IMG/VR virus record: IMGVR_UViG_3300038657_000098
Span: 1-36,755 of that record
Length of the DNA stretch: 36,755 bases
Origin: a virus
Direction: 5' to 3' (one strand)
Below, piece by piece: positions 2,370-15,482 of this stretch (position 1 is its first letter; each line of letters opens with the position of its first letter). The notes below the pieces were generated by a model. The model searched no databases. It was given only the letters and a program-made list of their open reading frames with translations, and was not told the DNA's origin. Both the position numbers and the translations under genes were made by a program.

Positions 2370-3500
2370 ATGCTTAAAGACCGACTTTTATTTGCAGCTA
2401 GCAATACGTATGGTGACTTATCTACGGGGGAAATGTATTCCTTTGGATCTAATGTAAATGGTCAAACTGGATTAGGAACAACAGTTGGAAATACATTAAG
2501 CCCATTTCAAGTTGAATTTTCACCTAATTGGGATGTTATATCTGCTGGATATCTTCATAGTGTTGCAATTAGATCTGATGGCTCTATGTGGTCGTTTGGT
2601 GCTAATACAGATGGACAAACTGGATTAGGATTATCAGTTGGTGATACATTAACGCCGACTCAAGTAGGTGTTGCAACTGATTGGGTTGATTGCTCAGCTG
2701 GTAGATCTCATAGTCTTGCTGTTAACAACTCAGGCGAGCTTTATGCTTTTGGAGCAAATACTAGCGGTCAAACGGGTTTTGGCACAACAGCTGGCAGCAC
2801 ATTAGTGCCAACTAAAATTGGTGTTGCAACTGATTGGTTATCTGTTTCAGCTGGAGCATTTTATAGTTTGGTAACAAAAACTGATGGAACAATGTATTCT
2901 TTTGGTACAAATAATTTTGGATGTACTGGTCAAGGAATATCAACTGGAGATACATTGGTTCCTACACAAATAGGTATTGCAATAGACTGGTTATATATAT
3001 CAGCTGGATACATTCACAGCTTAGCAATAAAAACTGATGGGACAATGTTTGCATTTGGCGGCAATTTCAACGGTAGAACAGGATTAGGATTGTCAACAGG
3101 TAATACATTAGTCCCAACACAGGTTGGTGTTGCAACTGATTGGATGGATTGCTCAGCTGGTAGATTTCATAGTGTTACAATTAGATCTGATGGCTCTATG
3201 TGGTCGTTTGGTGATAATGCAGATGGGATAACAGGATTAGGATTGTCAACAGGTAATACATTAGTCCCAACACAGGTTGGTGTTGCAACTGATTGGTTAT
3301 CTGTTTCAGTTGGTGAAACTCATAGTCTTGCAATAAAAACTAATAATACAATTTATTCATTTGGATCAAATGCTAATGGGCAAACAGGTTTTGGCACAAC
3401 AGTTGGTAATACATTAACGCCAGCTCAAATAGGAATAATCACAAAATGGATAAAAATAAATGCTGGGGTATCTTATAGTTTATCATTACAAACTCCCTAA
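2370..3500 (+). CDS. RCC1-repeat protein, 7 repeats (single beta-propeller)
   Basis: The 376 residues hold seven RCC1 repeats of about 51 residues with their own consensus (SFGxNxxGQTGLGxSxGxTLxPTQVGVATDW...SAGxxHSLAIKTDGTM), distinct from the upstream protein. Seven repeats are exactly one propeller. The start MLKDRLLFAAS copies the neighbour's N-terminus, followed by a short linker. The ATG follows AAAGGAATATTATTTAA, and the gap to the previous stop is 31 bases, so the two are probably co-transcribed. The stop codon overlaps the end of the convergent endolysin gene by four bases. Nucleotide identity between some repeats is high (for example around 3085-3160 and 3235-3300), which suggests recent duplication or conversion. 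Function is unknown; a tail-associated binding role is inferred. Confidence 0.83.
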   Translation: MLKDRLLFAASNTYGDLSTGEMYSFGSNVNGQTGLGTTVGNTLSPFQVEFSPNWDVISAGYLHSVAIRSDGSMWSFGANTDGQTGLGLSVGDTLTPTQVGVATDWVDCSAGRSHSLAVNNSGELYAFGANTSGQTGFGTTAGSTLVPTKIGVATDWLSVSAGAFYSLVTKTDGTMYSFGTNNFGCTGQGISTGDTLVPTQIGIAIDWLYISAGYIHSLAIKTDGTMFAFGGNFNGRTGLGLSTGNTLVPTQVGVATDWMDCSAGRFHSVTIRSDGSMWSFGDNADGITGLGLSTGNTLVPTQVGVATDWLSVSVGETHSLAIKTNNTIYSFGSNANGQTGFGTTVGNTLTPAQIGIITKWIKINAGVSYSLSLQTP

Positions 3501-8914: not shown

Positions 8915-9220
8915 ATGACAAAAAAGAAACAAAAACTATCAGATAGAAATTTATATGACTACTTATTACACGTAGCTTTGAATTTAGAGTATAAATCAAA
9001 CCCTGAAATATTTTATTATAAACTAACTCACGATGATGTTTGCGAAGATTTAGAAGTATCAAGCACTACAGCGGTTAGAATGAGACAAACTGGGATAGAT
9101 TTAAATATATTTTATAAAAAACTAAAAGAAGGCATAAGAATTATCTTTACTGTAGACGCTGAAAGAGTAAAAGAATTAATACATGAGTTAGAAGTTAAAT
9201 GGGGAAGAAAAGATGCTTAG
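8915..9220 (+). CDS. Winged-helix DNA-binding protein, paralogue of the next gene
   Basis: The protein has 101 residues. It shows a helix-turn-helix with a following wing: LTHDDVCEDLEVSSTTAVRMRQTGIDLNIFYKKLKEGIRIIFTVD. The pattern (E/D)VxxDLxVSSxTxxxMxQxxID...V.....F/YxVD is shared with the protein at 9213, so the two arose by tandem duplication. A basic N-terminus (MTKKKQKL) precedes it. The leader contains a variant of the ATGCAACAA-purine motif. A regulatory role is inferred from the fold; the similar wing module at the N-terminus of the initiator (11659) suggests common ancestry. Confidence 0.75.
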   Translation: MTKKKQKLSDRNLYDYLLHVALNLEYKSNPEIFYYKLTHDDVCEDLEVSSTTAVRMRQTGIDLNIFYKKLKEGIRIIFTVDAERVKELIHELEVKWGRKDA

Positions 9221-9521
9221 AGATAAAACAGAGCTTGCAAATAATATTAAATTTAAAATTATTAACTATCTTTATCGCAAAGCAGAAGAAATAAATGATG
9301 AAAGTTTTATCTATAAGAGAACAACTGAAGAAGTTATAGCAGATTTAAATGTGTCAAGCGCTACAGTTGCAAAGATGATACAGTTTGCTATTGATAAAAA
9401 GATCTTACACTCAAAAGAAAAAGTTGGAGTCAAAACTATTTATCAAGTAGATATAAAGAAAGCTAAATCTATGTTGATAGATCTCTGCAAAGATCAAGCA
9501 GAGGTTACACATGAAAATTAA
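9213..9521 (+). CDS. Winged-helix DNA-binding protein, tandem paralogue
   Basis: The protein has 102 residues, with the HTH and wing at about residues 33-80 (TTEEVIADLNVSSATVAKMIQFAIDKKILHSKEKVGVKTIYQVD). The N-terminal helix (NNIKFKIINYLYRKAEEI) matches the preceding protein's YDYLLHVALNLEYK region. The gene overlaps the upstream stop by eight bases and overlaps the next gene by eleven. Four consecutive genes therefore form one tightly coupled unit. The two paralogues could form a heterodimer, which is a hypothesis. Confidence 0.78.
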   Translation: MLRDKTELANNIKFKIINYLYRKAEEINDESFIYKRTTEEVIADLNVSSATVAKMIQFAIDKKILHSKEKVGVKTIYQVDIKKAKSMLIDLCKDQAEVTHEN

Positions 9522-9727: not shown

Positions 9728-9931
9728 TTGATAAACTGGTATTACAAAAACGAAGATTATATAATTATTGTTATATGTTTTTTACATTTTACAACTGGTT
9801 ATACATGTGTTGATATTGCTATGTTTCTTGCAATAATAGCAACAAGAGATATTAATACTGTTAAAATTAGTTTTGTTATGCTGATAATTAGTTATTTATA
9901 TAATGACACATTTGTATTTTATTTTAAATAA
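9728..9931 (+). CDS. Small membrane protein with TTG start (moderate support)
   Basis: The 67-residue frame begins with TTG at 9728, ten bases after the preceding stop, without a clear Shine-Dalgarno sequence. Hydrophobic segments (DYIIIVICFLHFTTGY; DIAMFLAIIATR; TVKISFVMLIISYLY) resemble the topology of the preceding protein. The motif FLAI..TR/KQ followed by a hydrophobic span is shared, suggesting a diverged paralogue. A terminator-like hairpin follows directly, which supports it as the end of the unit. Confidence 0.5.
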   Translation: MINWYYKNEDYIIIVICFLHFTTGYTCVDIAMFLAIIATRDINTVKISFVMLIISYLYNDTFVFYFK

Positions 9932-9933
9932 CC

Positions 9934-9969
9934 TGCTATTATCGTAAAATTTCTAACACGATAACAGCA
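9934..9969. terminator. Bidirectional terminator-like hairpin between convergent genes
   Basis: TGCT-A-TTATCGT and ACGATAA-C-AGCA form an 11-bp stem with one A-C mismatch around a 12-base loop. It lies between the stops of the plus-strand membrane-protein unit and the minus-strand HExxH protein. T-runs are poor, so efficiency is uncertain. Confidence 0.6.
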
Positions 9970-9983
9970 AGTATTAAATAAAG

Positions 9984-11381
9984 TTATACAGTACTAACTA
10001 TAACTGTGTAGTAATCTTTTTCTTTCTCAACGACTTCCACTTTAAAATTAACTTTCAAGTAATCGGTCGGTTCAAATAAGTTACCAAAAGTTTCTAGTCT
10101 TGTAGAGCCACCCCCCGTCCCAGTTGGCACATATAAAGCCATAAACATTTGCACTTTACCTCGCAAACTTTTTCTAGTTAATGATAAGTAAATTGGATTA
10201 TCACCTTGCACAATTTTAACTAGATTTACATAACCAGATCTTGCTTTACTATCCACTGTTTGCACTTTATAAGTAGTTGGCTCATCAGTCTCAGGGGTGA
10301 ATAATGCTACTTGTTTTTCAAAGTACCATCCTTGATAATATTGTTGAACCGCTGTGATGTAAGCAGCAGAGTAAATGCTCATAAACGATGAGCCGTCACG
10401 GGACGATTGAAACTCACGTACTTTTTTCTTGCCTTTTTTGACCCAGGCATATCTGTTCGAGTGATTTAATGCAGTGATGCCATTGCCTTTTAAAATATGT
10501 CCAACTTCGTGCTTGCCAGTAGTCTTTAGCGTACTAGTTAATGAAGCAGAGTTACCGCCAGCATGATTGCGTTTGTCAGCTCCATTTTTAACAGTAACAT
10601 ATAATACTCTGTAACCAGTTGGAGTTGCAGGATACATCTTTTTGATTTTATTAGTAGCAATTGAACCATTAACTTTGCTGCGATTCATACCAGTGTTTAA
10701 AACTACAGTATTAAATTCCATGTGTACACGACCGTTCGACATATATTCATAAGCATCTCTAATAGCACGACCCAGACTTTTAAGTTGTGCATTACTAGCT
10801 CCACCTTTGTCTTTCCATTTAAGAGATCCGATATTTAATAAGTAGTTACCTTGTTTAACAGGCATAACTGGAGCATAAGTTATAGTGTCATCAATAACTT
10901 CTTCTTCAACTTCTTCAACTTCTTCAACTTCTTCTACTAGCTCTTCTTCACTGTCACTGTCTTCGTCTTCTGTCTCTTCTTCATCGCTAACATCATAGTC
11001 TTCATCTTCGTCTGATTCTTCATTACATAAGCAAGTGTCATCTAGTTCTGCTAATTCATCTTCAGCAACGCTTAATAAAGCCTGGAATGGAGTAAAGCTA
11101 ATAACATCAGATATTAACTCTTGTGATATTTTAAGCAGAGTAATTACGTTATAAATACGATATGCATTATCAGTATTATCAGCAACAGATTCTATAGCTT
11201 CTTTAATATCTAGTTTTTGTTGTTCATCTAAAAGTGCAAAGTGATTTAACGGCACGTATTCAAGCAATATTTGTGATGCTTGAATAAGCTCAATAGCATT
11301 AGAAGTGTTATCTGTGTTTGCTAACAATTCTAATGATGTATCAAGTAAGTAGTTAAGTTCTGAAAGTTTTTGATCTCTCAT
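9984..11381 (-). CDS. Putative metzincin-like metalloprotease with acidic linker
   Basis: The 465 residues show three parts. Residues 1-115 are helical and acidic. Residues 120-165 are a nearly pure Asp/Glu/Ser/Val tract including EEVEEVEEVEEE. Residues 178-465 look like a protease and a beta-rich tail. The tell-tale motif is H291-E-V-G-H295 followed by Gly299. H307 is a possible third ligand, further away than in the canonical HExxHxxGxxH. A Met-turn-like SSFMSIYS follows around M334, then VQQYYQGWYF, like the LGW segment after the Met-turn of gametolysin-type (M11/M6) proteases. The C-terminal strands (NPIYLSLTRKS, MFMALYVPTG) fit their beta-sandwich. GGAG precedes the ATG. There is no signal peptide, so action inside the cell or from the virion is likely. 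Substrate is unknown. Confidence 0.6.
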   Translation of the reverse strand: MRDQKLSELNYLLDTSLELLANTDNTSNAIELIQASQILLEYVPLNHFALLDEQQKLDIKEAIESVADNTDNAYRIYNVITLLKISQELISDVISFTPFQALLSVAEDELAELDDTCLCNEESDEDEDYDVSDEEETEDEDSDSEEELVEEVEEVEEVEEEVIDDTITYAPVMPVKQGNYLLNIGSLKWKDKGGASNAQLKSLGRAIRDAYEYMSNGRVHMEFNTVVLNTGMNRSKVNGSIATNKIKKMYPATPTGYRVLYVTVKNGADKRNHAGGNSASLTSTLKTTGKHEVGHILKGNGITALNHSNRYAWVKKGKKKVREFQSSRDGSSFMSIYSAAYITAVQQYYQGWYFEKQVALFTPETDEPTTYKVQTVDSKARSGYVNLVKIVQGDNPIYLSLTRKSLRGKVQMFMALYVPTGTGGGSTRLETFGNLFEPTDYLKVNFKVEVVEKEKDYYTVIVSTV

Positions 11382-11467: not shown

Positions 11468-11487
11468 TTCTCTCTAGATAGAGAGAA
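11468..11487. promoter_or_regulatory. Perfect dyad TTCTCTCTA-ga-TAGAGAGAA
   Basis: Two 9-bp arms are separated by two bases, the geometry of a dimeric repressor or initiator site. The arm TAGAGAGA is related to the purine leader motif used elsewhere in this genome. It lies between the divergent genes and could control either or both. Confidence 0.7.
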
Positions 11488-13209: not shown

Positions 13210-14025
13210 TTAATTTTTATGACTATTTCTAATAACTGAATCAAAAAAACTAAATTCTTCCATGTGATTTTTTTCAAAGAAACTTTCTATTGCTGCTTTA
13301 TCTGATTCAAAGAAAGCTTTAGTAAAATTATAATCAATAGATCTATAGCAAGGATTTTTACTAAGATCATAGATTACTGTATATATTTTATGATAAATTT
13401 TTATCTCGTTAAGGTTTTTAACGTCATATATTCTGTACTCTACACAATCACATATTTTGATTACATTATCATCTAAATCCTTATCCTCATCATAATAAAC
13501 AATAACGTTATTTCTTTTAAAGTATGTGTTAAGTTTACCGACAAATTCTATATACCCCCTAAGGTCATCTTCGATATCTATGGGATGCATTTTTTTATAT
13601 GACTCAATTATCCATTTATCAAAAATATCTACGTTATTTATATATTTTATTGTTTGATTATTCTTTTTAATATCATCCATGGTAATTTCTAGATTACTAT
13701 TTTTGTATAACTCTTCAGCAAGAGCGTCATCTCCAAAAAAATCAATAGTTCCATTAATTGAGCTATAAGCGTCATATTTAGAAACAGAACCATCTTCTAT
13801 TGTTTTTGACGTCTTTTTTTCACATACAAAATATCCATCTATAGACTTATATAAAAAAAATATTACACAAAAAAAATCTTTTGTATCAAAATCTATTGCA
13901 TAACCTATTAAAGATCCTGTAAATTTTAAATCTCTATCATTATCCATTTGGAAAACATATTGATATGGATTATTTTTTTCTTTAACTTTTGTATGTTCGA
14001 ACATTATTTTTAATTGTTCTTTCAT
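13210..14025 (-). CDS. Conserved unknown protein, larger member of a two-gene family
   Basis: I choose the ATG at 14025 (271 residues), preceded by AGAGAGAAG; a TTG at 14046 would add seven residues. The N-terminal 105 residues match the protein at 15102-15482. Both have FxGxLIGYAI, an aromatic-rich strand ending in GxYFVCE or GNYVCTE, then Y-DA or YARA, SIN/SIEE, (I/T)xFFGxDxLAExLYxxxxI. I recall similar GxYVCE...FFG...LAKELY proteins in bacteria and plasmids with no known activity. The other 165 residues (including YRIYDVKNLNEIKIYHKIYTVIYDL) are unique to this copy. The gene converges on the initiator gene, with six bases between stops. Confidence 0.72.
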   Translation of the reverse strand: MKEQLKIMFEHTKVKEKNNPYQYVFQMDNDRDLKFTGSLIGYAIDFDTKDFFCVIFFLYKSIDGYFVCEKKTSKTIEDGSVSKYDAYSSINGTIDFFGDDALAEELYKNSNLEITMDDIKKNNQTIKYINNVDIFDKWIIESYKKMHPIDIEDDLRGYIEFVGKLNTYFKRNNVIVYYDEDKDLDDNVIKICDCVEYRIYDVKNLNEIKIYHKIYTVIYDLSKNPCYRSIDYNFTKAFFESDKAAIESFFEKNHMEEFSFFDSVIRNSHKN

Positions 14026-14172
14026 ATCTTCTCTCTTGTTAATCAACTAATTGTTGCAAGATAATTGTATCATGATAAGATTAATTATTAATCAATAAAA
14101 CAACAAAATAAGATGGATAAAACTTTAAATATGCTATTATTAAATAAGTCTTTAAATTTTGAGGGTTATCAA

Positions 14173-15101: not shown

Positions 15102-15482
15102 TTAATCTATATGTCTAGTAGTATCAATCTCAGCGCTTTCATATAAGTCTTTAGCTAATTTATCAAAACCGAAAAATTCTGTTATTTCTTCTATTGAGTT
15201 ACAAGCTCTAGCATAACAATTTGTATCTGCATCGCCCGACTCTGTTTCTGTACATACGTAATTACCGCCGACCGTTAAGTATAACTTTAGTAGCGTGTAA
15301 TTATAATCTTTTGAATCATCTTCTTGTTTTATTGCATAACCAATTAATTTTCCTTCGAATGATATATCAGCTTGATCATCAACAGTAATAAGATAATCTG
15401 TATTAACTGTTTTTGAAAGATTTTTTAAAAGAGTTAACATCATTTTTAACTGTTTTACACTTTTCATAGTGTTTTTTTTCAT
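15102..15482 (-). CDS. Conserved unknown protein, small member of a two-gene family
   Basis: This 126-residue protein is paralogous to the N-terminal part of the protein at 13210-14025. Shared blocks are FEGKLIGYAIKQ, LLKLYLTVGGNYVCTETES, and SIEEITEFFGFDKLAKDLYESAEID. The second half matches a widespread GxYVC...FFG...LAKxLY pattern that I recall from bacterial proteins without known function. The ATG follows AGAGAGAG in the shared leader motif. It has its own promoter. Both family members read leftward and have the same type of leader, so they were probably duplicated with their control region and remain co-regulated. Confidence 0.75.
   Translation of the reverse strand: MKKNTMKSVKQLKMMLTLLKNLSKTVNTDYLITVDDQADISFEGKLIGYAIKQEDDSKDYNYTLLKLYLTVGGNYVCTETESGDADTNCYARACNSIEEITEFFGFDKLAKDLYESAEIDTTRHID

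Follow-up and report, generated by a model that had tools for sequence, protein, structure and literature searches.

A phage-encoded candidate zinc metalloprotease with an acidic N-terminal region and a likeness to M11 (gametolysin-type) peptidases

Analyses of a 36,755-nucleotide stretch of viral DNA (IMG/VR virus record IMGVR_UViG_3300038657_000098, positions 1 to 36,755; hereafter the window) identified a gene whose product we read, from its translation, as metzincin-like, leaning to the M11 (gametolysin-type) peptidases and falling below membership of that family. Our leading, still tentative, interpretation is that the gene encodes a cytosolic, single-gene zinc protease with a divergent M11-like metzincin domain, which would be held latent by an acidic pro-region and would probably cut a host protein; its fold, zinc binding, activity, latency and substrate are what we infer in this interpretation, and the reading frame, the motifs with their spacing, the distribution of charge and cysteines, the isolated position of the gene and its absence from related phages are what the sequences show. 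On the sequence evidence, the protein is a good candidate for biochemical testing, short of a demonstrated new enzyme. The features referred to below are as follows.

9984..11381, minus strand: putative zinc metalloprotease gene, 465 aa, ATG start, stop included, with GGAG 5' of the ATG
11022..11381, minus strand: acidic N-terminal region (residues 1-120; pI 4.1), for which no relative was identified
11019..11033, minus strand: T-C-L-C-N, residues 117-121 of the translation, which contains both cysteines of the protein and opens the acidic linker
10878..11033, minus strand: acidic linker, residues 117-168, 60% Asp/Glu, no Lys or Arg
9987..10856, minus strand: putative catalytic part, residues 176-465, basic (pI 9.9), cysteine-free
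10497..10511, minus strand: HEVGH (residues 291-295), which would supply zinc ligands and the general base
10461..10463, minus strand: H307, which may be the third zinc ligand and lies six residues downstream of its canonical place
10380..10397, minus strand: DGSSFM, residues 329-334, candidate Met-turn in the same register as the M11 [DN]xxxxM[GS]
10326..10334, minus strand: QGW, residues 350-352, with Trp 18 residues past Met as in M11-type proteins
9931..9972, no strand assigned: imperfect inverted repeat directly 3' of the stop of the protease gene and of the convergent gene
11468..11487, no strand assigned: perfect palindrome TTCTCTCTA-N2-TAGAGAGAA, lying where the protease and replication genes diverge

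The reading frame was found exactly where the first-pass annotation had placed it, with an ATG and 465 residues on the minus strand at 9984-11381 of the window. Its GC content by codon position (0.49/0.34/0.24 for positions 1/2/3) resembled that of the neighboring genes, and the plus strand over the same interval was closed by many stops. An antisense or artefactual reading frame was rejected on the basis of the long frame, the ribosome site, the terminator hairpin and the closed opposite strand. The inverted repeat at 9931..9972 folded at -20.7 kcal/mol (z -6.6) when read on the minus strand and is likely a terminator common to the protease gene and the convergent gene. The palindrome at 11468..11487 lies in the divergent promoter region and is a possible operator.

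The two parts of the protein differed markedly in charge, the N-terminal part and linker having a pI of 4.1 versus 9.9 for the catalytic part, and C118 and C120 were its only cysteines. Both the acidic linker and the lack of a signal peptide noted in the first-pass annotation held up: residues 117-168 were 60% Asp/Glu with no Lys or Arg, and no signal-peptide-like or transmembrane stretch was detected in the protein, the highest 19-residue hydropathy being 1.2, at residue 89. The absence of both a signal peptide and cysteines in the catalytic part suggested a cytosolic location. The acidic N-terminal region may plausibly be a pro-domain. AlphaFold models built from the single sequence and from six sequences had pLDDT values of 32 and 40 and gave no usable fold.

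HEVGH (291-295), H307, M334 and QGW (350-352) were all located at the positions previously given for them. Relative to H295, H307 was 11 residues on, D329 was 34 and M334 was 39, with H307 lying in an LNHSN string that begins at residue 305. The unusual distance of the third ligand was thereby confirmed, H307 being six residues beyond the canonical position; the candidate third ligand is oddly placed because it sits 11 residues past H295. The metzincin (clan MA(M)) motif HExxHxxGxxH/D was not found in the corresponding segment, HEVGHILKGNGITALNH, which has Lys298 and Gly301 and its His, H307, six residues late.

To place the protein among metzincins, comparison sequences were gathered by two motif scans of IMG/VR, and further M11 proteins were taken from Pseudomonadota genomes. 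The Pfam M11 family (PF05548) has a gathering score of 21 bits; the protein had no Pfam match up to E 10 and PF05548 gave none on the window. In contrast to this, PF05548 scored 60, 31 and 52 bits against the IMG/VR proteins L140, L180 and L218, with L198 and others being close to these. Contigs L140/L228, L180, L198, L214, L218 and L167 of IMG/VR encode diverse M11-type metzincins, of which the L140 protein had no match in 50,697 phage records; some of these contigs may be misassigned bacterial DNA. Weak M11-profile matches were also seen in genomes of an alphaproteobacterial order.

The order and spacing HExGH...H...[DN]xxxxM[GS]...G[WY] were common to the phage protein and M11 proteins, including the uncharacterized members L140/L228, L180 and L218. 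D329, M334 and W352 fit the M11 arrangement of [DN]xxxxM[GS] followed by G[WY] 17-19 residues past the Met, and the GG preceding HEVGH in the phage protein corresponds to the GG or GK stretch before HExGH in M11 proteins. The whole spacing pattern arose in 14 of 300,000 shuffles of the protein's own tail, a figure that overstates the case because the pattern was set after the motifs had been seen. Among 268 HExxH reading frames from metzincin-enriched loci, the pattern occurred only in M11-type proteins. Profile comparison and hhalign aligned DGSSFM with the Met-turn of M11 proteins; with the register left free, hhalign matched HExGH, H307, D329, M334 and GW to M11 with a six-residue gap (pairwise P=0.039).

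A core M11 profile of eight sequences scored the protein at 12.6 bits, and only one of 1000 HEVGH-preserving shuffles did as well (0.1%). Profiles of 13 and seven M11 sequences were less discriminating, with 54 of 1000 (5.4%) and 36 of 996 (3.6%) shuffles as good, respectively, and for seven profiles of other zincin groups, constructed in the same way, 4.7% to 79% of shuffles were as good. Divergent M11-like proteins that had not been used to build the core profile reached 35-118 bits versus 12.6 for the phage protein, which places it well outside the M11 family. MAFFT did not bring the N-terminal half of the catalytic part into register with the M11 proteins. The statistical support for an M11 likeness is thus suggestive only. 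The gametolysin-like layout originally proposed for the protein was weakly supported, by the order of the motifs, the Met and GW spacing and the core profile; the other two M11 profiles separated the protein from shuffles less well (3.6% and 5.4%), and Pfam M11 gave no match.

Several properties set the phage protein apart from M11 proteins. Its third His is six residues further from the second than in M11 proteins, it scores below any family threshold, and it has an acidic pro-part and linker. Its catalytic part is cysteine-free, whereas the M11 proteins compared have several cysteines. Characterized M11 members are secreted enzymes with a signal peptide, and no hydrophobic N-terminus of that kind was present in the phage protein.

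The alternative that survives best, although unlikely, is a zinc protease of another zincin type, in which the third ligand would be a residue other than H307, such as the acidic D329, and the M11-like spacing would be coincidental. Such an enzyme would account for the missing canonical third His, as D329 and several Glu lie downstream of HEVGH, and two of the three M11 profiles separated the protein from its shuffles unclearly. Aspzincins (M35-type) similarly have HExxH followed by an Asp about 30 residues on, and D329, 34 residues past the second His, is within the range of the aspzincin ligand Asp. However, the GTxDxxYG motif of aspzincins was absent from the translation, the protein has the M11-specific spacing of Met and GW, and none of the profiles of other zincin groups fit as well as the core M11 profile.

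We consider it decidedly unlikely that the protein is a decayed, catalytically dead relative of metzincins, in which the longer loop removed the third ligand, and which would act, if at all, by binding. A six-residue interruption of HExxHxxGxxH, in which Lys and Gly occupy the places of the canonical Gly and His, is what would be expected of a decayed enzyme, and there was no relative with which purifying selection could be demonstrated. Against this, the 465-codon frame was intact, with a base composition by codon position like that of its neighbors, and HEVGH, the His, the Met and GW were all retained, which drift would not have kept.

It is improbable that HEVGH arose by chance in an unrelated protein lacking a zinc site. 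Although there were no database matches and the structure models were poor, HExGH occurred once in the 73,506 six-frame residues of the window, in a real gene, and was followed by a His, a Met and GW at M11 spacing. The DNA motif pattern had no matches in 100 shuffles.

Judged by its surroundings, the gene belongs to a P22-like podovirus, and the portal and capsid proteins of this virus were 23-27% identical to their counterparts in phages of Pseudomonas, Vibrio, Shewanella and Thalassomonas. IMG/VR contained many phages with terminases up to ~70% identical to that of this phage, and similar terminases were found in genome contigs of an uncultured alphaproteobacterial bin, Endozoicomonas and a Salinisphaera assembly. 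The protease gene stands alone on the minus strand, flanked by short plus-strand genes and a replication-O-like gene; it has replication genes around it and is outside the structural block, which runs on the opposite strand. In a gene-by-gene comparison, it was absent from all ten of the nearest phages. As most of these have head, tail and terminase genes in common, the protease gene is an accessory one, outside head assembly.

No relative of the protein was identified in family scans of Pfam, NCBIfam and PHROGs with the whole protein and its parts, in IMG/VR and 84,980 species genomes queried with the full-length protein and with its catalytic and N-terminal parts, or in 540 sampled genomes. 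PDB sequences gave no meaningful match (antibody chains and other chance matches), and phage and plasmid records gave unrelated matches only. A search of IMG/VR for the HExGH-x11-HxN spacing by DNA motif patterns returned 19 loci, none related. Based on this lack of relatives in databases, in genomes and in the ten nearest phages, we consider the gene to be an orphan accessory gene.

Elsewhere in the window, tandem RCC1-repeat (beta-propeller) proteins at 158-2338 and 2370-3500 were 41% identical, had a common start (MLKDKLLFAAS and MLKDRLLFAAS) and had relatives in two of the nearest phages; a receptor-binding or fiber role for them is a guess. A sigma factor encoded by the phage (4913-5593, plus strand), in which regions 2 and 3 were recognized, was missing from the ten related phages and may read special promoters of this phage. 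Also missing from those phages, and with no Pfam or PHROGs match, were two paralogous proteins on the minus strand (13210-14046 and 15102-15482; 33% identical over 123 aa). Two adjoining small paralogous proteins (8915-9521, plus strand) were 41% identical over 64 aa, the second having a sub-threshold match to the restriction endonuclease ThaI.

A virion-borne or prohead-processing role, which the first-pass annotation had raised and which an acidic pro-part would suit as a packaged latent enzyme, is very improbable and was unsupported by our data because the gene is among replication genes, outside the structural block and on the strand opposite to it, and is missing from the ten nearest phages, most of which have the terminase-portal-capsid block in common with this phage.

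Returning to the cytosolic, M11-like protease that we tentatively favor, the catalytic domain would be the C-terminal part, a divergent metzincin that resembles M11 peptidases most. The zinc helix would contain H291, E292 and H295, with the two His residues binding zinc and E292 acting as the general base. H307 would be the third ligand, provided by a loop six residues longer than usual, and the turn with M334 would lie below. The acidic N-terminal part and linker would pair with the basic catalytic part and keep the enzyme latent, possibly with C118 or C120 near the zinc, until the pro-region was cleaved or displaced. The gene would be expressed in the infected cell as an accessory unit of one gene, ended by a hairpin terminator of its own. 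The substrate would be a host or phage protein, a host protein being likeliest in view of the accessory, single-unit nature of the gene. We regard as rather unlikely the more specific proposal of a new family of phage metzincins that work in the cytosol, have a longer zinc-binding loop, are kept latent by an acidic pro-region of complementary charge carrying a CLC cysteine switch, and cut a host protein during infection.

A metzincin-type protease gene of phage origin has a precedent in Mtz of Listeria monocytogenes, a phage-derived gene whose secreted product acts on the cell wall and has a TIMP-like lipoprotein as its partner (PMC8235301). Unlike Mtz, the protein described here has no secretion signal and no evident partner gene. 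The Mtz case shows that metzincins are indeed used by loci of phage origin.

If the protein is inactive, it would indicate that HExxH strings in orphan phage genes require biochemical proof. If it is active, its acidic pro-region would be a simple latency device, and its six-residue insertion would probe the limits to which the zinc motif of metzincins can be extended. Most metzincins are secreted, and an active protein would be a metzincin-type protease used by a phage inside the bacterial cell.
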